Positions 8,630-20,892 of a stretch of 35,289 nucleotides of DNA are shown one piece after another. Source of the stretch: a virus; the IMG/VR virus record IMGVR_UViG_3300035670_000741, positions 1 to 35,289 of that record; one strand, given 5' to 3'. The notes beneath the pieces are model-generated. The model did not search any database and was not told the origin of the DNA. It saw only the letters and a list, made by a program, of their open reading frames with translations. A program made the position numbers and the translations under genes. How positions within the stretch are numbered: position 1 is the stretch's first letter; each line of letters starts with the position of its first letter.

Positions 8630-8816
8630 TTTCCCTTTCCCCTAATTTAACCTCGCTATCCAACTCCATGATATTTGTTGACTGTAGTCTGTAAAGCGTA
8701 GGTAGTAATATGTCTAACTCACTCTTTAATCTCATCGCTTCTGGAGCATTTACCCACATCGCCTTATCAAACCACTTTTGTATAACAGCCGTGACTTTCT
8801 TTATATCTTTGTCCAT
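8622..8816 (-). CDS. Hypothetical small helical protein
   Basis: This 64-residue protein is helical and charged, with a C-terminal sequence (LDSEVKLGERENE) that resembles the C-terminus of the next gene upstream (LDSEVK). The shared ending suggests partial duplication or shared ancestry. It overlaps the zinc-ribbon gene by 8 bases. No domain is recognised. Confidence 0.6.
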   Translation of the reverse strand: MDKDIKKVTAVIQKWFDKAMWVNAPEAMRLKSELDILLPTLYRLQSTNIMELDSEVKLGERENE

Positions 8817-8834: not shown

Positions 8835-9104
8835 TTATTTAACCTCGCTATCCAAGGACTGCAACTGTTTATAATACGGCTTCATTTTTTCGTGCCACAT
8901 TCTTAAAAACATATCACTATCCCATGCACCTGCGTTCTTCTCCCATTCAAGAATTTCTTTTAACAACTCTTGTATCGCACCCTTTCGAGTTTCATCTAAG
9001 AGTTGCTCGATGTAGGCATACAGCACTTCAGTCTTTGCACCATCAGCAACCATTTTGTATTTTCCCCAAAGTATCATTTTTTGTTCATCAGTCAATTTTG
9101 CCAT
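8835..9104 (-). CDS. Hypothetical helical protein
   Basis: This 89-residue protein starts MAKLTDEQKMILWGKYKMV and is predicted all-helical. It ends SLDSEVK, a motif shared with the neighbouring 64-residue protein. No family is recognised. The ATG at 9104 follows the stop of the repeat protein gene by 1 base, so the pair is likely coupled. Confidence 0.6.
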   Translation of the reverse strand: MAKLTDEQKMILWGKYKMVADGAKTEVLYAYIEQLLDETRKGAIQELLKEILEWEKNAGAWDSDMFLRMWHEKMKPYYKQLQSLDSEVK

Positions 9105-9105
9105 A

Positions 9106-9615
9106 TTAGTTTAGCTTTTCAGCTTCACATTTTAATTCCTCTATTTTCTTTAGTATTTCTGCTTTACGCTTCGCATTCTCACTTTCTTCTGGCAATCCTA
9201 GCTCTTTAAGTATTCCATATTCAACTACACCACCTTCAAACTTTCCACATGTAATAGTTTTATCGTCTTCTGATATTTCTCTCCAAGTACATATACCTGC
9301 GAACACTTTTAACCCAAATTTTAGAACTCCTTTACAAGTAACGTGTAGCCCTGCTGATATCCCATAATACCCACCAGCCTCGATAGACCCACCAGCCTCG
9401 ATAGACCCACCAGCCTCGATAGACCAACCAGCCTTGATAGACCCACCAGCCTTGATAGACTCACCAGCCTTGATAGACCCAGTCACAAATAAGCCCATAT
9501 CAAGTTCTACCTTTATAGACCCTGTAGTTTCAATAGACCCTTCTAGCTCGTATCTCCAACCTACGTTCTTTAATCCGTTATAATCTTTTGTTATTATTAT
9601 GTCTTTGTTTTCCAT
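9106..9615 (-). CDS. GSIEAG-repeat, beta-helix-like protein
   Basis: This 169-residue protein has about eight tandem six-residue units of the form G-S-I-x-A-G (about residues 46-95). The units put an aliphatic residue at a fixed place in each turn, as in beta-helical or beta-roll folds. A non-repeat region follows (KFGLKVFAGICTW, then TITCGKFEGGVVEYG), and a charged coiled-coil tail ends the protein. Similar GSIKAG/GSIEAG proteins are known to me from phages and uncultured bacteria, but I know of no assigned function. The repeat is encoded by near-identical 18-bp DNA units, so length may vary between isolates. Confidence 0.75.
   Translation of the reverse strand: MENKDIIITKDYNGLKNVGWRYELEGSIETTGSIKVELDMGLFVTGSIKAGESIKAGGSIKAGWSIEAGGSIEAGGSIEAGGYYGISAGLHVTCKGVLKFGLKVFAGICTWREISEDDKTITCGKFEGGVVEYGILKELGLPEESENAKRKAEILKKIEELKCEAEKLN
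9371..9478 (-). repeat. Six tandem 18-bp repeats inside the GSIEAG gene
   Basis: Six units of ccaccagcctcgatagac (plus-strand view) lie end to end. The first three are identical and the last three carry the same c-to-t change (cttgatagac), showing stepwise duplication. The repeat is in frame, so copy changes add or remove six residues. Confidence 0.95.
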
Positions 9616-9617
9616 GT

Positions 9618-9866
9618 CTATTTACCAAATCTTAATTTATCTTCTTGCATTTGTACACTATCTTTTGTGCCAAAGCCCGTTTGTACTACTACAACCTCTT
9701 GCGTTTGTTTTTGAGGTGTTTTTGGCAACGTGGATAGCCTTACAATTCCCCATAGGATAAAAGTAGCAAATAGAGCAACCGCAATAGCAATTACCCATTC
9801 GATAAATTCTAAATTGTCTTTTTTCTTTTTCTCCGCTAGGGTTATTATTTTAAAATCTTTTTTCAT
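9618..9866 (-). CDS. Small single-pass membrane protein
   Basis: This 82-residue protein has a basic N-terminus, one clear membrane segment (WVIAIAVALFATFILWGIV, about residues 24-42) and a hydrophilic C-terminal tail. The positive-inside pattern places the N-terminus in the cytoplasm. Its ATG lies 1 base after the stop of the 26-codon frame upstream. Possible roles include superinfection exclusion or membrane anchoring of early functions; neither is proven. Confidence 0.7.
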   Translation of the reverse strand: MKKDFKIITLAEKKKKDNLEFIEWVIAIAVALFATFILWGIVRLSTLPKTPQKQTQEVVVVQTGFGTKDSVQMQEDKLRFGK

Positions 9867-9867
9867 A

Positions 9868-9948
9868 TTAGTTTAAGCCTAACATAAAACTTAAAATTTC
9901 TCCTCTGGTAACTTGTTCACCATAGAGCTTTTTATATTCTTCTAACAT
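9868..9948 (-). CDS. 26-residue leader-like protein, putative sRNA target
   Basis: This short frame (MLEEYKKLYGEQVTRGEI then LSFMLGLN) is supported by its position. It begins directly behind a promoter region, its stop lies 1 base before the next ATG, and its start sits inside a 20-bp sequence identical to the start of the gene at 13079. It heads the operon running to 7549. Its start region is complementary to the predicted small RNA at 16195-16267, so its translation may set translation of the genes behind it. Product function unknown. Confidence 0.6.
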   Translation of the reverse strand: MLEEYKKLYGEQVTRGEILSFMLGLN

Positions 9949-9962
9949 TGTTCAGATGTTTT
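9943..9962 (-). promoter_or_regulatory. Conserved translation-start element, copy 1
   Basis: Read on the minus strand, the 20 bases run AAAACATCTGAACA, ATG, TTA. The same 20 bases occur at 13074-13093, also spanning a start codon. Within it ATCTGAACAAT is the exact complement of the single-stranded part of the predicted sRNA. There is no Shine-Dalgarno sequence here. Confidence 0.75.
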
Positions 9963-9974
9963 TAATTTATTCTG

Positions 9975-10008
9975 CTTATAGCTTACTTCAAGTTGCGTAG
10001 AATGTCAA
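9975..10008 (-). promoter_or_regulatory. Probable early promoter
   Basis: A perfect -35 TTGACA lies at 10003-10008 (minus). At 17-base spacing the -10 would be TAAGCT (9980-9985); a better box, TATAAG (9975-9980), is 22 bases away. The -35 and the shared downstream element argue for a real promoter; the exact -10 is ambiguous. Confidence 0.45.
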
Positions 10009-10011
10009 GAG

Positions 10012-10227
10012 TTAGTTTTCTTCCAGATATTGGGCTAATTTAGTAAGCCTCTTAAAATTCCTTTCAAAATTATGCTTTGGGGTATTGGTTTGTGATAACC
10101 AGTTGCTAACAGTTACAGGTGATACCCTGCATAGTTTAGCAATCATTCTATGCGATACCTCATATTTACGATGTAGTGTAATAATCAAGTCTTTGAATGA
10201 CGTTTGACGTGTATTAAACTCCTTCAT
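10012..10227 (-). CDS. Helix-turn-helix transcriptional regulator (Cro/CI-type)
   Basis: This 71-residue protein has a helix-turn-helix centred on SHRMIAKLCRVSPVTVSNWL (about residues 25-44), followed by a C-terminal helix. Size and layout match Cro-like phage regulators. It is the only recognisable transcription factor in the window, hence the best candidate to bind the operator-like half-sites near 16262-16311 or the TGTCGAT motifs near the origin. It is the last gene of the operon starting at 13079, itself a predicted sRNA target, so it may be part of the switch. Its start overlaps the nuclease gene stop by 14 bases. Confidence 0.75.
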   Translation of the reverse strand: MKEFNTRQTSFKDLIITLHRKYEVSHRMIAKLCRVSPVTVSNWLSQTNTPKHNFERNFKRLTKLAQYLEEN

Positions 10228-11216: not shown

Positions 11217-11945
11217 CTATTTCTTATCGTAATAATTTAGCATTCTTTGACCTACTTCTGGAGTAAGCATTTCGCCATCGACATTAAATACTCCTGTTCT
11301 ATCCTTTTCTACAGTTGCGAATCCAGATTTAGTGTTTTCAACATTTATAACAGCGTCAAACTCATACTCAATGCCATCTCTTTGTTGAAGCTCCATACCC
11401 TTTTTGGTAACTATACCGCCTTGCATTTCGTAAGCTTGTTTAGTTCTACCTGTACAGATGATATGGACTTTACCATTCATAACAATTTTGTCTATTAGGT
11501 CTTTGTATAGCTTGTTACCTTTTACCCATGCCCCAAATGAGTTGGCATATCCTGATTTAGTCTTGAACTCTGTTTGTGATAGATTTTCTACAATCTCTAA
11601 AATGCCATTTCTGCCATTCCAGACATGAGAAAAAGAATCAATTATAAGCACGTTATACCCTTCTTTTATCACTAAGTCTATTAGATTGAAGTATCTTTTT
11701 GGGTCGTGGTCGTTGCCTGTTAGTGCATTGTAGTCTACCACATCAAAGTCGAACTTATTGGCATAATGAGTGCTAGAGATATTTTCTGTGTCAACTAAAC
11801 ATATTTTGCCATCTTTACCTGCCAATTCTTTTGCAAGTGTTAAAGCGGAATATGTTTTACCTGCTCCAGATGTACCTCGAAGAAGTAACGCCCATTTCTT
11901 TTGTAGTTTACTTGCTTTTTGAAATACCATTTTCTTTTCTTCCAT
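11217..11945 (-). CDS. Sak4-like RecA-type ATPase (single-strand annealing/recombination)
   Basis: This 242-residue protein has a Walker A GTSGAGKT (residues 24-31) followed by a RecA-like core and a Walker B hydrophobic strand (NVLIIDS). Phage proteins of this class (Sak4, AAA_24) act with a cognate SSB in recombination-dependent replication. The gene directly downstream of an SSB-like gene supports this. An internal Met at residue 6 could be the true start. It belongs to the operon starting at 13079. Confidence 0.8.
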   Translation of the reverse strand: MEEKKMVFQKASKLQKKWALLLRGTSGAGKTYSALTLAKELAGKDGKICLVDTENISSTHYANKFDFDVVDYNALTGNDHDPKRYFNLIDLVIKEGYNVLIIDSFSHVWNGRNGILEIVENLSQTEFKTKSGYANSFGAWVKGNKLYKDLIDKIVMNGKVHIICTGRTKQAYEMQGGIVTKKGMELQQRDGIEYEFDAVINVENTKSGFATVEKDRTGVFNVDGEMLTPEVGQRMLNYYDKK

Positions 11946-12595: not shown

Positions 12596-12826
12596 TTATA
12601 AATTATTTTCATCATACCCTTCTGGTATATTTGAACAGGAGTAATCCTGTTCTTCTTCCGCCTCTATATCATAATCAATTTTTGTTATTCTTCGCTTTTT
12701 CTTTAATTTATTTAACTGCTCTAATACCCACGCTTTTTCTTTTTCACTTCTCGGAACAAATAATACATTATCTCCTGAAACTGCTCTTACAGCATCAAGA
12801 AGTGTACCTCTATTAAATTTAGACAT
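12596..12826 (-). CDS. Hypothetical acidic-tailed protein
   Basis: This 76-residue protein has a basic middle (LNKLKKKRRITK) and an acidic C-terminal half (EAEEEQDYSCSNIPEGYDE). No family is recognised. Its start overlaps the stop of the 86-residue gene by 8 bases. It precedes the SSB-like gene, which suggests a DNA-metabolism role by context only. Confidence 0.6.
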   Translation of the reverse strand: MSKFNRGTLLDAVRAVSGDNVLFVPRSEKEKAWVLEQLNKLKKKRRITKIDYDIEAEEEQDYSCSNIPEGYDENNL

Positions 12827-13079
12827 ATTTGAATTCTATTACATTATTAACATTTGCATCAATCTTTGTTAGGTAGTAGGTTAAACAATTACCAATTGCA
12901 ATTGCGTTATCACCATCTAAGACAATCTCTACACCTCGATTCCATAGTTTTAGTATTTTATATTCTGGGTCAAACCAGCCGTCCATGCTTACATCGTCAA
13001 TTGTAAGCGCAAAGCTCCAACCGCCATCGACGTCACACCTACAGAAATCTATTACTCTTAACTTTTTGAATATTAACAT
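12819..13079 (-). CDS. First gene of the recombination operon, putative sRNA target
   Basis: This 86-residue protein is beta-rich (WSFALTIDDVSMDGWFD and following) with no recognised domain. It lies directly behind the best sigma70-type promoter in the window and its start codon is inside the 20-bp element shared with the gene at 9948. There is no Shine-Dalgarno sequence; the leader is A/T-rich. Pairing of the predicted sRNA over the first two bases of its AUG would block ribosomes here and, through overlaps downstream, reduce the SSB-like, Sak4-like, nuclease-like and HTH genes. Confidence 0.65.
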   Translation of the reverse strand: MLIFKKLRVIDFCRCDVDGGWSFALTIDDVSMDGWFDPEYKILKLWNRGVEIVLDGDNAIAIGNCLTYYLTKIDANVNNVIEFKYV

Positions 13080-13093
13080 TGTTCAGATGTTTT
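13074..13093 (-). promoter_or_regulatory. Conserved translation-start element, copy 2
   Basis: This is the same 20-base sequence as at 9943-9962, again covering leader, ATG and second codon on the minus strand. It starts about 9-10 bases after the expected transcription start. ATCTGAACAAT in it is complementary to the predicted sRNA. Confidence 0.75.
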
Positions 13094-13108: not shown

Positions 13109-13137
13109 ATTATAAGCTAAGTACTATTCTTTGTCAA
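13109..13137 (-). promoter_or_regulatory. Consensus sigma70 promoter of the recombination operon
   Basis: On the minus strand a perfect -35 TTGACA (13132-13137) is separated by exactly 17 bases from a perfect -10 TATAAT (13109-13114). Transcription would start near 13102 and give a leader of about 22 bases. It is the strongest promoter visible here and overlaps the 3' end of the upstream gene. Confidence 0.9.
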
Positions 13138-14198: not shown

Positions 14199-15702
14199 TT
14201 CTCTCCCTGTTTAATTTATTTATAACCATATTCAAAGTATTAGTTTCCGCTTCATTTATACGAATATCGTTATCTATAATTCGATATATAGTACCCCTGC
14301 TTCCGTTAGGCTTTTCTTCTATAACCATTGATTTATCGAACATACTACTCATAGCCAAAGAGACAGCTTCATTTAAACCTTGGGTAAAGTTACTACCTCT
14401 TATAACTTTAGCTTCTTTTATAGATGTCTTATCGACCCATTCGCCTTTATTCTGTATAAGTAGTTCTATGAGTTTTATATAGTCTGGTTTGTCTTGTTCT
14501 TCAAAGTACATTCTGTACCTATTCCCATAATACTCAGTAATTCCTATTGCCGATTCCAAAAACGATACATCAATAATGTGGTCTTCTGGATATTCGTATG
14601 CTGACATTATACAAGCCAACTTCATGGCACGTTCTGCTCTACCCCTTAATTCACCTGCTATATGCTGAGCCATTGGTAACTTCTGTAATCTCGCAATCTC
14701 TAGCTTATATTCTGCTAACAATCTGTCTGATTCGGGACTTAATGTATAGGCAGGTTTGTTGTCAAAGATAACATTTCTATATACATTGTAAAAAGCTAAT
14801 TGTATGGGTCTTATGTATGCTTCCGTTTCCTTTTTTACTTCTAAACCATTTTTAATATAATCATCTACTAAAATATCGGTATTTATTGGATTGCCCTTTG
14901 TAACGCATACAAAAGATCTCCTTGCCATTCCATTCGAAAGAAAAGAGTATAGGCTCTTTTTAAGATTTGCGTCTGTTAGAAAGTCTGTATTAGCAGAATG
15001 TACTAACATATTCATAGGGACATCTAATACAGGCTCTATACTCCTTTCAGTTTTTAGTACCCCTGCTTTAGTATCGCCATAGTAACCATCTATCATAATG
15101 TCTAAAAACATCTGATTAGTATCGTCTTTGCTCATGTAGTAATCTGCAAATTCGCCATGTTGAAAGGTTACGCAACCATAACCTACGTCTTTAAGCGATT
15201 TTCTATATGAATAGACTCCTTGTGGTGTACCTCTACTTAATTCAAAGGCGAAATTATGGGGCTCATTCATTCTAACATAGTTATTTCTTTGCTTTTTGTC
15301 GTTTGGATATAACTCTTTTGCTCTGTCTAATATAAGTTTTTTCTTTTCTTCTAACAGTTGGCTATACTTTGTATAAAACTCTTGTTGTACTTCCTTCATA
15401 AAAACCTGACCTACCAAATTTGTTACCCTGTCTTTACCTATTCCAGATCCTAAGAATAGTATCGTGTACATATTAAGATACATACCTTCCCTTCCATCGC
15501 CAATATGTAATTCAGACTTTACCATTGTTCTATTTAACCCAAGCGTCTGAGCAACTTTTGTATAAAACACTAACAAAGAGTATTCTAAAGGTACTTCTGG
15601 TATGTTTTTACCTATATATTCTACAAGGGCTATACTCGCTTTAGCAGGTATAAAATCTGACAAGTCGGTGTCCTTATCATATTTCGGTATTGTATATTTC
15701 AT
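14191..15702 (-). CDS. DUF3987-type replication ATPase (helicase/primase-like)
   Basis: This 503-residue protein carries a Walker A-like loop LGSGIGKDR (about residues 84-92) in a context typical of DUF3987 proteins, thought to be phage or plasmid replicative helicases or primase partners. The C-terminal part looks like a small winged-helix module (LIELLIQNKGEWVDKTSIKEA). It is the first gene left of the putative origin, pointing away from it, a common place for an origin-binding or helicase-loading protein. A degenerate -10-like TATAAA (15716-15721, minus) lies 13 bases before the ATG. Confidence 0.75.
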   Translation of the reverse strand: MKYTIPKYDKDTDLSDFIPAKASIALVEYIGKNIPEVPLEYSLLVFYTKVAQTLGLNRTMVKSELHIGDGREGMYLNMYTILFLGSGIGKDRVTNLVGQVFMKEVQQEFYTKYSQLLEEKKKLILDRAKELYPNDKKQRNNYVRMNEPHNFAFELSRGTPQGVYSYRKSLKDVGYGCVTFQHGEFADYYMSKDDTNQMFLDIMIDGYYGDTKAGVLKTERSIEPVLDVPMNMLVHSANTDFLTDANLKKSLYSFLSNGMARRSFVCVTKGNPINTDILVDDYIKNGLEVKKETEAYIRPIQLAFYNVYRNVIFDNKPAYTLSPESDRLLAEYKLEIARLQKLPMAQHIAGELRGRAERAMKLACIMSAYEYPEDHIIDVSFLESAIGITEYYGNRYRMYFEEQDKPDYIKLIELLIQNKGEWVDKTSIKEAKVIRGSNFTQGLNEAVSLAMSSMFDKSMVIEEKPNGSRGTIYRIIDNDIRINEAETNTLNMVINKLNRERNG

Positions 15703-15706
15703 TTTC

Positions 15707-15926
15707 TGTCGATGTTTTATATTAAATAGGCAGAAAAGGGGGTACTAGGAGACATCGACGAAACCTAGCATAATTCCCCCTTTTTTACCCACTTTGATAT
15801 TGTCGATTTTTATATTATTAAAAAGACTTTATACCTTTTTTTTAAACGAGTCAACAGGCTTATAGTAGTATTGAAAAGTTGTCGCAAAGCAACTTTCGCA
15901 ACTTTCACCAACTTTTTGTCGATTTA
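15707..15926. repeat. TGTCGAT motif repeats near the origin
   Basis: TGTCGATG (15707), TGTCGATT (15801) and TGTCGATT (15917) are direct repeats; an inverted copy (CATCGACG, 15753-15760) lies in the loop of the hairpin at 15736-15789. The first two copies continue alike (TTTTATATTAAA and TTTTATATTATTAAA). They may be binding sites for an early regulator or initiator. Confidence 0.5.
15736..15789. terminator. Bidirectional terminator-like hairpin upstream of the replication ATPase
   Basis: AAAAGGGGG and CCCCCTTTT flank CTAGG/CCTAG with a small internal loop. On the plus strand six Ts follow, on the minus strand TTTTC. It lies upstream of the gene at 15702, so in the minus direction it could attenuate transcripts entering from the right. 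Its loop carries the inverted CATCGACG motif. Confidence 0.6.
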
Positions 15927-16180
15927 AAAGTTGCTTTCTCTCACATATTTGGTATAAAAGTAGTAAATATATGTATCAACTTCTTAACTTTTACTACCCC
16001 ACATATATACCTTCTCTTTTACATAATTTATAGGAAAAATGTAAAAGAGGAAGTGTAAATACATATATAAAAATAGCAAAAGTTGAAAGTTGGTCTTGAA
16101 AAAGTGTATTTTATATCGGCATTATCGAGTAGTATCAACTTTTGGCACTTTCAAAAGTTGACGAAAGTTGATGAAAGTTG
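15874..16180. other. Putative replication origin with AAAGTTG iterons
   Basis: AAAGTTG occurs seven times in one orientation (15875, 15927, 16079, 16086, 16154, 16164, 16174) and four times inverted as CAACTTT (15890, 15899, 15909, 16136). The right cluster at 16154-16180 has an exact 10-bp period, one helical turn; the left inverted cluster has spacing of 9-10. Between the clusters lies very A/T-rich DNA with a long inverted repeat. Iterons beside an A/T-rich unwinding region next to a replication gene are the usual marks of an origin. Initiator protein is not identified. Confidence 0.7.
16009..16054. repeat. Long inverted repeat in the A/T-rich core of the origin
   Basis: Arms 16009-16024 and 16039-16054 match in 14 of 16 positions, with a 14-base loop. 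A second inverted repeat, GTAGTAAA (15960-15967) / TTTACTAC (15990-15997), lies to the left. Both could extrude as hairpins when the origin melts. Confidence 0.75.
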
Positions 16181-16194
16181 GCTTATTTTGGCAT

Positions 16195-16232
16195 AAAAAA
16201 AGGGCTAGACCCATTACAGGAAGTCTAGCCCT
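16195..16232 (-). terminator. Rho-independent terminator of the sRNA
   Basis: AGGGCTAGAC (16201-16210) and GTCTAGCCCT (16223-16232) form a perfect 10-bp stem with a 12-base loop. In the minus direction it is followed by a run of Ts (16195-16200), in the plus direction by none. It therefore stops minus-strand transcripts only. Confidence 0.9.
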
Positions 16233-16267
16233 CCAATCTGAACAATTGACTGCGTTAAAAGCACAGT
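16195..16267 (-). ncRNA. Predicted small regulatory RNA, antisense to two early start codons
   Basis: On the minus strand a transcript of about 72 bases is defined by a TATAAT box (16273-16278) and a perfect rho-independent terminator. It folds as a 6-bp 5' hairpin (ACUGUG/CGCAGU), an unpaired segment CAAUUGUUCAGAUUGG and the terminator hairpin. This is the usual plan of a base-pairing bacterial sRNA. The unpaired segment contains AUUGUUCAGAU, the exact complement of AUCUGAACAAU at the start codons of the genes beginning at 13079 and 9948. No protein frame fits in it. Expression is not shown; a shared DNA-binding site is the main alternative. Confidence 0.65.
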
Positions 16268-16311
16268 ACAATATTATACTACGAAGTGCTATACGATTGA
16301 ATGGTACTGTG
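16262..16311. promoter_or_regulatory. Operator-like inverted half-sites flanking the sRNA promoter
   Basis: CACAGTAC (16262-16269) and GTACTGTG (16304-16311) are perfect inverted 8-bp sites with centres 42 bp apart, four helical turns. The first covers the expected sRNA start site, the second lies just outside its -35 region and next to the upstream edge of the late promoter. This suits a DNA-looping repressor. The HTH protein at 10012-10227 is a candidate. Confidence 0.55.
16273..16301 (-). promoter_or_regulatory. Promoter of the sRNA
   Basis: A perfect TATAAT (16273-16278, minus) has a weak -35 TTCAAT (16296-16301) at 17-base spacing. Start of transcription is expected near 16266-16267. 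A weak -35 suggests dependence on an activator or strong repressibility. Confidence 0.6.
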
Positions 16312-16340
16312 TTTATCTGTTATTATATCTGTGGTATAAT
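16312..16340 (+). promoter_or_regulatory. Extended -10 promoter of the late operon, leaderless
   Basis: TGGTATAAT ends at 16340, and the ATG at 16346 follows after only 5 bases. The -35 is weak (TTTATC, 16312-16317, 17-base spacer). The transcript would begin at or within a base or two of the A of the ATG, so translation is probably leaderless. Confidence 0.75.
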
Positions 16341-16345
16341 AACAC

Positions 16346-17017
16346 ATGGGAAATTATATTTGTGAAAAATGTGGAATCAGTTTTTATCAAAGACCATCGC
16401 ACAGAGCCAGAAAAGTACATGCTATATGCTCTAGGAAGTGTGCTGTAAAGTTTTACGTTGGAGAAATGAACCATATGTATAAACGAGTGGAGAATACATG
16501 TGGAGTATGTAACAAAAAGTTTTTCACTACAGTATCTACTGTGCGAAAAACATGTTCAAGGGCGTGTGCTGGTATCATCATTCGGAAGCGTATTAGCTTA
16601 AAGTGTGATACTTGTGGTACTAACATAACTAAAGTGCCTGCTCTTCTACATAACCATAACTTTTGTTCGAGGACATGTGCAGATAAATTCCATTCTAAAG
16701 CGATGTCAGGGAGTGGCAATTCTAGGTGGATAGGTGGTGTACAGAAAGATGGCTATACTTTTGACTTTGATGACATTAAAAGAAGGATTAGAGTTAGAGA
16801 TAATAATAGGTGTCGGTACTGTTTATATAATAATCGTGAGGACATTACTGATAGTTTAGCTGTTCACCATATTGACTATAATAAACAGAATAACAGCAAT
16901 AACAACTTAATAACTCTATGTAATAGTTGTCACATGCACATACATAGAACAAAATACGAATGGAAAAGTCTATTAAGTGCTATAATAAGTAATGACGAAA
17001 AAGAAAAATCCAAATAG
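16346..17017 (+). CDS. HNH endonuclease with multiple zinc ribbons, packaging-associated
   Basis: This 223-residue protein has N-terminal Cys pairs in three treble-clef-like units (CEKC...CSRKC, CGVC...CSRAC, CDTC...CSRTC), about residues 5-115. The HNH core follows with RCRYC, then AVHHIDYNKQNNSNNNLITLC and CHMHIH. HNH proteins beside terminase stimulate or assist cleavage in cos-type packaging systems, which fits its place as first late gene, overlapping the small terminase start by 26 bases. The three tandem zinc units are probably for DNA binding. It could also be a homing endonuclease. Confidence 0.85.
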   Translation: MGNYICEKCGISFYQRPSHRARKVHAICSRKCAVKFYVGEMNHMYKRVENTCGVCNKKFFTTVSTVRKTCSRACAGIIIRKRISLKCDTCGTNITKVPALLHNHNFCSRTCADKFHSKAMSGSGNSRWIGGVQKDGYTFDFDDIKRRIRVRDNNRCRYCLYNNREDITDSLAVHHIDYNKQNNSNNNLITLCNSCHMHIHRTKYEWKSLLSAIISNDEKEKSK

Positions 17018-18780: not shown

Positions 18781-20892
18781 ATGGCACTTTTTGATAATAT
18801 AAAATCCCTCTTTACCGAGAAAGCAGAAACTAAGGGCTTTAATGCTCAGGATATACAATCAGCATTTAGACCTTTAGGCGATAAAAGAAAATCCACAACT
18901 GTAGAAATCGCTAAAAGTTTACCTACCCTAACATTCCCAATTATTACAGCTCTAGCCTCTGACTTTTCTGGAATAAAGCTAAAACTACTACAGGGCGTTG
19001 AGGATAAAGAAAAACAAATTAAATATAATCCAGCCCTAACTAGTTTAATGTTTCCTAATGACCAGACTTCAAGGCTAGATTTATTCATGCAGTACTCAAT
19101 GTACATGGACATTGTAGGTGAAGTGTTTTGGTACGTTCCTAAAGCGAAACTAGGTAGAATGAGAAATATTTACACCCTAAATCCACTTGCATTACAGGAG
19201 ATTAGGTTTGACGATAATGGAACGCCTATATCCTATACCTTCACAAACGACAAATCACAACCAATTACATATTCCGCAGATGAGGTCTTAATGGATAAGA
19301 CAGTCAATTTGGGTGATTTAAGACGAGGATTTTCACCTGTAACTCCAATTGCTGAGAACATAGATACACAACAAGGTGCGATGGAATATAACAATAAATT
19401 CTTCGCAAACGATGCTACTCCATCGCTACTTCTTAAGGTCAAGAATACCCTAACAGAAGCTATGCGAAATATTATAAAAGCTAACTGGAAGCGTAACTTT
19501 GAAGGTGCTAGTAAAGCACATAGGTTTGGAATTATAGAAGGTGATACCGAAGTACAAACCCTAAGCTCTAGTCTAAGGGACATGGCATTCAAGGATATTT
19601 ACGAGGTTACAGATGGTAACATTTTAAGTAACTGGCGTGTATCTAAGACAATTATCGGGCAATCTGCTGATGTTAATCGTGCTAGTATCGAAGGAGCTGA
19701 ATATAACTATGCCAAGCGTGTACAAACTCCAAAGATGGAAAAGTTTATAGCCTTTTTGAATCATAAGTATTTACCTTTGTTCTTTGATAAGACCGATATT
19801 GTAGTAAACGATATTCGCTTTGAATATGAAAATCCTGTAACACAAGACAAAGAAACTACAGCACGAATTGCACAAATTGGAACTGGTAACAAGCAGTTTA
19901 TGTCTATAAACGAGGCTCGTGATATGCTAGGTTTAGAAAAATTAGAAGGTGAAGAATATGACGAAATCGAAATGCCAGAAGAACCAGTTGAAACACCAGA
20001 AGCTCCAGAACAACCGCAAGAAGAAAAGCCAGAGCCAGAGGATATGCCAGAAGACGACAAGGAAAAGCAAATCGAAAGTCTTAAAATGGCACTAGAAGGC
20101 ACTATTGAGGACTTAAAGGCTATGGAATCCTTTGAACAGGTTAAAGCTATGCAGGTTGCAGAAATTGAAAAGAAGCATATTGAAAAGGCATTAAAAAGAG
20201 AAGCCAAACTAGAGCCTATACTAGATACCTTCTTTGCAGAACAACAAGCTAGAGTAATTGCCAACTTGGAATCTCAGGGTGTAAAGAGTATTAAAGCCTA
20301 TGGCGATATACTAGATGACCCAAACGAAGTGAGCCTAATGTTTAACGCTATGTTTCCATTCTTCTCGAAGTTAGCAAAACAGGCTTGGAAAGATGCAAAT
20401 GATAGAACTGGTGTAAGACTCCCTGCTACTGAGGCGGAAATTGCTCAGGTTGCTGAGAATGTAACCCGAAAGGCGGTTTTAGAAGTTACTAGCAATACAG
20501 GAAAGGACTTAAACTCGATATTAGAACAAGCGGTTATTAAAGGCTCTAGCATTCCAGAGATAGCTAAAGAAATTGGGGCTTTGTACGATGGCTACAAAGG
20601 TGCTAGAAGTCGAGTTATTGCACGAACTGAAATCAATGCGGTTGTATCAGAGATTACCTACAATAACTACGAATCAGCACAACGAGATGGAATCATTAAA
20701 GGTTACTCATGGTTATCAGTTGGTGACGAGAGAACTCGTGATACCCATTCGGGAGCTGAAAGGCAAGGCGTGAAAAAAGTTGGTGAAAAGTTTAATCTAG
20801 GTGGTGAGTTAGCAAGGTATCCGGGAGACCCAAGCCTAAGTGCAGGTGAGCGTGTCAATTGCAGATGTACTTTGGTACCAGAGATTTTTTAG
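18781..20892 (+). CDS. Portal-MuF fusion protein
   Basis: This 703-residue protein has an HK97-type portal in its first 400 residues (for example YNPALTSLMFPNDQTSRLDL and NKFFANDATPSLLLK). An acidic proline-rich linker follows (PEEPVETPEAPEQPQEEKPE), then a C-terminal Mu F-like head morphogenesis domain (VIARTEINAVVSE, then WLSVGDERTRDTHS, ending ERVNCRCTLVPEIF). The portal forms the ring for DNA entry; MuF domains are usually carried on a separate minor head protein. The acidic linker may act as a flexible tether. Confidence 0.85.
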   Translation: MALFDNIKSLFTEKAETKGFNAQDIQSAFRPLGDKRKSTTVEIAKSLPTLTFPIITALASDFSGIKLKLLQGVEDKEKQIKYNPALTSLMFPNDQTSRLDLFMQYSMYMDIVGEVFWYVPKAKLGRMRNIYTLNPLALQEIRFDDNGTPISYTFTNDKSQPITYSADEVLMDKTVNLGDLRRGFSPVTPIAENIDTQQGAMEYNNKFFANDATPSLLLKVKNTLTEAMRNIIKANWKRNFEGASKAHRFGIIEGDTEVQTLSSSLRDMAFKDIYEVTDGNILSNWRVSKTIIGQSADVNRASIEGAEYNYAKRVQTPKMEKFIAFLNHKYLPLFFDKTDIVVNDIRFEYENPVTQDKETTARIAQIGTGNKQFMSINEARDMLGLEKLEGEEYDEIEMPEEPVETPEAPEQPQEEKPEPEDMPEDDKEKQIESLKMALEGTIEDLKAMESFEQVKAMQVAEIEKKHIEKALKREAKLEPILDTFFAEQQARVIANLESQGVKSIKAYGDILDDPNEVSLMFNAMFPFFSKLAKQAWKDANDRTGVRLPATEAEIAQVAENVTRKAVLEVTSNTGKDLNSILEQAVIKGSSIPEIAKEIGALYDGYKGARSRVIARTEINAVVSEITYNNYESAQRDGIIKGYSWLSVGDERTRDTHSGAERQGVKKVGEKFNLGGELARYPGDPSLSAGERVNCRCTLVPEIF

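Follow-up and report, generated by a model that had tools for sequence, protein, structure and literature searches.

A candidate small RNA of a virus with an 11-base complement to the start regions of two early operons

Introduction

The c4 RNA of phages P1 and P7 blocks translation at the ribosome-binding site, its complementary stretches probably lying in loops, and it controls the antirepressor operon and immunity (PMC12197685). In phage P22 the antisense RNA sar, which is encoded opposite the ant mRNA, blocks initiation of translation of this message (PMC12197685). The OOP RNA of lambda, an antisense RNA to cII, acts via RNase III, and its promoter is tied to replication (PMC12197685). Two further small RNAs, PreS in lambda and VpdS in VP882, act in trans by pairing with mRNAs and work with Hfq; the target of PreS is dnaN of the host (PMC12197685).

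Here a viral record of 35,289 bases was analysed, the whole of which is called the window in the following. An earlier note on this DNA had proposed that a small RNA blocks translation of two early operons and that no such system is known to be described in phages of this type. The latter statement is wrong in kind, because c4 and sar act by blocking translation initiation (PMC12197685). As to the former, an RNA-like unit and two elements complementary to it are present in the sequence, and the block is predicted from them. Like OOP, the candidate is a short phage RNA and its locus is also origin-like, but it has no overlapping target. Like PreS and VpdS it would act in trans on mRNAs, but its predicted targets are early genes of the phage itself.

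Results

Gene layout of the window

Leftward genes extend from about 4.7 to 15.7 kb and include those for a primase-like protein, a CHC2 zinc-finger primase part, a Sak4-like ATPase and a small HTH protein. The rightward block begins at 16,346 and encodes an HNH endonuclease, terminase, portal and capsid. Both blocks are separated by 643 non-coding bases (15703-16345). TGA serves as a stop codon in the genes of the window, which argues against genetic codes 4 or 25. A Shine-Dalgarno sequence is absent from most genes, including the ORFs at 13079 and 9948; despite this, the promoters of the window are of the ordinary-looking TTGACA/TATAAT kind. Portal and capsid share less than 30% identity with phage records, and the lineage is distant from known phages.

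The product names given in the earlier note for operon 1 fared unequally. The Sak4-like assignment is well supported (Table 1) and the HTH protein is weak by sequence and helical in the predicted model, whereas the nuclease is very weak (RecU-like, E 0.008) and no SSB was found. A Pfam search with the 86-residue product of the first gene of this operon gave no match.

Some features of the coding regions are recorded here in their own right. The portal protein (18781-20892) is a fusion with a head-morphogenesis domain. Tandem repeats of 18 bases at 9369-9480, inside the gene at 9106-9615, encode G-S-I-K/E-A-G repeats with a weak match to the FapA beta-solenoid. An exact repeat of 19 bases, ATTTAACCTCGCTATCCAA, is found at 8645-8663 and 8837-8855, near the 3' ends of two adjacent genes.

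Table 1. Positions of the small-RNA unit, its putative targets and related genes in the window
Feature	Position	Strand	Basis
Candidate small RNA, 73 nt, ACUGUGCUUUUAACGCAGUCAAUUGUUCAGAUUGGAGGGCUAGACUUCCUGUAAUGGGUCUAGCCCUUUUUUU	16195..16267	-	read directly from sequence
-10 box TATAAT of the small RNA	16273..16278	-	6/6 consensus
-35-like TTCAAT, weak, 17 nt upstream of the -10 box	16296..16301	-	3/6 consensus
5' hairpin SL1, CUGUG-CUUUUAA-CGCAG, 5 bp	16250..16266	-	predicted fold
Weak hairpin SL2, CAAUU-GUUCA-GAUUG, contains the seed	16234..16248	-	predicted fold
11-base seed, DNA ATTGTTCAGAT, RNA AUUGUUCAGAU	16236..16246	-	complementary to both start-codon elements
Intrinsic terminator, stem of 13-14 bp followed by seven T	16199..16234	-	terminator scan
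Target element 1, 20-mer AAAACATCTGAACAATGTTA, includes ATG at 13079	13074..13093	-	dyad AACAT-N7-ATGTT
Target element 2, identical 20-mer AAAACATCTGAACAATGTTA, includes ATG at 9948	9943..9962	-	sequence identity
Promoter of target operon 1, TTGACA-17-TATAAT	13109..13137	-	12/12 consensus
Promoter of target operon 2, TTGACA-17-TAAGCT (weak -10)	9980..10008	-	read from sequence
First gene of operon 1, 86 aa, no assigned function	12819..13079	-	ORF
26-codon ORF heading operon 2, stops just ahead of the 82-aa gene at 9866	9868..9948	-	ORF list
Sak4-like AAA ATPase, operon 1	11217..11945	-	PF13479 E 1.7e-14; PHROG 124 E 2.8e-12
Small HTH protein, 71 aa, last gene of operon 1, candidate binder of the dyad	10012..10227	-	weak HTH_23, HTH_3 and DicA matches

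The candidate small RNA and its surroundings

A unit of promoter, hairpin and terminator had been described at this locus. Its TATAAT box, 5' hairpin and terminator are found, whereas TTCAAT as a -35 box agrees with the consensus at only three of six positions. The promoter consequently rests on the -10 box and is missing from the list of the promoter scan. With a perfect -10 box, a weak -35 box and a terminator that is the only strong one in the whole window under a stricter scan, the unit is a candidate for a discrete short transcript. The fold of the candidate RNA is predicted at -24.2 kcal/mol, with a z value of -3.3 against shuffles for a 70-nt version. A search of Rfam 15 at the locus returned no family match, even at E up to 1.

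The seed had been regarded as unpaired. It is instead part of the weak hairpin SL2, which in the predicted fold leaves GUUCA alone free, so that five of the 11 seed bases are located in the loop; the cost of opening the seed is about 1.7 kcal/mol.

The non-coding stretch between the two gene blocks is rich in CAACTTT (11 of the 21 copies in the window), contains several inverted repeats and is origin-like. The sequence CACAGTAC occurs inverted on either side of the small-RNA promoter, 42 bp apart (16262-16311), with one copy just upstream of the rightward promoter. Upstream of the HNH gene a TATAAT box ends five bases ahead of the ATG (16335-16346), which suggests a leaderless or nearly leaderless mRNA. 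In the leader of the primase gene (15705-15790) a terminator-like hairpin carries the loop GUCGAUGU, complementary to ACAUCGAC, which immediately precedes the ATG of the primase gene. A cis version of the proposed control at this leader was considered, but ATCGAC recurs four times in the intergenic region as a DNA repeat, so that the complementarity lends no independent support.

Two identical elements at gene starts

That the RNA carries an 11-base complement to the starts at 13079 and 9948, covering A and U of the AUG, is confirmed in the sequence. The 11-mer ATCTGAACAAT lies at 13088..13078 and 9957..9947 on the minus strand, and its last bases are the A and U of the start codon. Both starts had been thought to have 11 bases in common, but the identity actually comprises 20 bases (Table 1). 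An ORF does start at 9948, as described; it has, however, 26 codons. A translation block on this short ORF could reach the following genes of operon 2 via coupling. The targets are located 3.1 and 6.3 kb from the small-RNA locus, and the RNA is not encoded opposite either of them. Within the element, a 17-mer has no stable fold (0.0 kcal/mol alone, -1.0 kcal/mol with its flanks at site 1).

In the window ATCTGAACAAT was found three times (both ORF starts and the complement in the RNA unit), compared with 0.06 occurrences expected. This expectation was derived from 100 shuffled windows (mean 0.06, sd 0.24, at most one per shuffle) and takes the place of the 0.02 given before. Duplex prediction, which the earlier note had recommended, placed 13079 and 9948 first and second among 52 gene starts: as single helices both reach -12.2 kcal/mol, and the next start follows with -9.2 kcal/mol. 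After opening of both strands, net duplex energies are -8.8 and -8.0 kcal/mol. Duplex energies of the whole RNA are not exceptional.

When the 5' 34 nt of the RNA are shuffled with dinucleotides preserved, a complement of 11 nt to the 20-mer arises with a probability of 0.00096. None of 300 shuffled RNAs had an equally good second-best partner, a statistic inflated by the mutual identity of the real targets. If all 52 starts are allowed as targets, 11% of the shuffled RNAs reach one partner at least as good. At other places in the genome, 0.58 matches of 11 bases to the 20-mer are expected and two were found; the second, at 15105 inside the primase gene, is without obvious meaning. The start-region complementarity of the small RNA thus exceeds chance with ranks 1 and 2 of 52 and a probability of about 0.001, and is weaker (0.11) with all starts.

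Additional contacts were considered and dropped. As a second contact, the loop of SL1, CUUUUAAC, can pair past the two starts with GUUAAGAG or GUUAGAAG, but shuffles of the sequence there gave the same or nearly the same (fractions of 0.03 and 0.66). Kissing loops are not claimed: the loops are complementary, yet the 17-mer of the target lacks a stable fold, and chance alone gives two or three outer pairs at 7% and 2% of positions, respectively.

Search for relatives

Viral contigs, genome contigs and phage and plasmid records, from which near copies of the window may be missing, were searched, and no relative carrying the small-RNA and early region was found. Scans with primase, TerL, portal and Sak4 yielded one relative (L026), whose TerL and portal are 35-41% identical; it has terminase, portal and other genes but lacks the early region. 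Viral contigs were also searched for further copies of the dyad, or of a promoter together with the element, but none had a promoter and a gene start arranged likewise, and the hits look like unrelated sequence. Genome scans for the host found nothing.

Discussion

A translation block by the candidate small RNA is the best single explanation of the locus, since its two putative targets head the ranking of the 52 starts and a chance complement has a probability near 0.001. We regard it as plausible, and give a phage-encoded RNA that acts on two operon starts by base pairing a little less than an even chance. Transcription from the leftward promoter would yield a 73-nt RNA that ends at the intrinsic terminator. 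Its weak second hairpin presumably presents GUUCA and is easily opened. The complement of the seed AUUGUUCAGAU is AUCUGAACAAU, which spans -9 to +2 at the first ORF in two leftward operons, and the seed would pair with it there. Since the target mRNAs lack a Shine-Dalgarno sequence and have short leaders of about 25 nt, such a duplex may bar ribosome binding and both operons would be lowered together. The promoter of the RNA is back to back with the HNH-terminase promoter and has the GTRGTATAATA -10 region in common with it. Therefore, the RNA is probably made together with the packaging genes. Both of these promoters have a poor -35 box and differ from the TTGACA promoters of the target operons. 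Replication and recombination genes might accordingly be damped when packaging and structural genes switch on, which is the weakest step of the proposal.

Several observations count against pairing. Its best partner is equalled in 11% of shuffled RNAs and the energies of the whole-RNA duplexes are ordinary, chance 11-base matches to the 20-mer are not rare, as the extra one at 15105 illustrates, and the -35 box of the small RNA is poor. Furthermore, the 20-mer identity extends past the seed. A dyad operator accounts for the extra bases, which pairing alone does not. The most serious rival takes the 20-mers at the start codons as DNA operators, through which a small HTH repressor, for instance the 71-residue protein, represses its own operon and the next, with the match in the RNA as a third, degenerate operator by its promoter. 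This is well motivated at the gene starts, because a 17-bp dyad, AACAT-N7-ATGTT with perfect 5-bp arms, is found within the 20 identical bases at both starts and an HTH gene is part of the same operon, directly upstream of element 2. Each dyad follows the start of one of two related promoters at a distance of about 20 bp and lies 38-40 bp behind a TTGACA box, and the site in the RNA unit is likewise close downstream of a promoter. The predicted model of the HTH protein is helical (pLDDT 79.7) and resembles phage repressors and antitoxins without a significant match (top Foldseek matches P2 C, P22 C2, HigA and HipB, all with E > 0.3).

The operator reading fits the site in the RNA poorly, however. 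There the 11-base core is intact and the flanking dyad arms are changed (CA..TG versus AC..GT; AACAT/ATGTT to CCAAT/ATTGA), the reverse of what a dyad operator needs. A seed needs the core and a dyad operator the arms, so that this pattern favours pairing over a shared operator. In addition, AACAT-N7-ATGTT has no further site in the window. Pairing is therefore placed first, with the case of both mechanisms to be added to it, and an operator function alone, which we hold to be unlikely, second.

Next in order, and rather improbable, is a coincidence, in which a genuine small RNA serves some other purpose, for example as an OOP-like RNA by a replication origin or on targets in the host, and its match of 11 bases is accidental. 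The RNA unit adjoins a repeat-rich, origin-like stretch of 450 bp, which would suit such a role, and the figures named above against pairing (0.58 matches expected elsewhere, the meaningless one at 15105, and an equally good single partner in 11% of shuffled RNAs) speak for it. They are opposed by the chance of only about 0.001 for a match in this RNA and in the pairing direction.

Less probable again is a combination, in which a repressor binds operators at sites 1 and 2, and the small RNA, as a separate second layer, targets the mRNAs of both operons. Dyad and seed overlap and are compatible, the 20-mer exceeds the seed, and an HTH gene and an RNA unit are both present, but two mechanisms are required. 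That no stable small RNA exists and that the hairpin merely terminates another leftward transcript or shields the primase operon from leftward transcription is highly improbable: the -35 box is poor and the scan does not list the promoter, but a perfect -10 box stands at the right distance and no upstream leftward gene needs a terminator, as the neighbouring operon runs rightward and away.

In its widest form, the base-pairing explanation describes a timer of the lytic cycle, in which a single RNA, its promoter and that of the terminase standing back to back, shuts down two early operons, whose mRNAs are without Shine-Dalgarno sequences, via one identical 20-base start-codon element that is also a repressor operator. 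We consider this form doubtful. If base pairing is true, an RNA that coordinates two early operons of its own phage would represent an early-to-late switch at the RNA level, and control of the c4/sar type would be extended from immunity to when lytic genes are expressed. The proposal makes a concrete prediction, with 11 bases and two targets.

Comparison with known phage RNAs

With sar of P22 the candidate has in common that a small phage RNA is proposed to block initiation by base pairing. In contrast to sar, it is encoded away from its targets and would form 11 pairs with them, and hence is not a cis-antisense RNA. The likeness to c4 of P1 and P7 comprises a short phage RNA, pairing at the start region and a block of translation, all of which are so far features of a candidate here. 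There is no sequence relation to c4, as the small-RNA locus has no Rfam match, and two separate early operons with one common element would be the targets. The proposed mechanism would thus be of the c4/sar kind, and its variation would be the joint targeting of two distant early operons.
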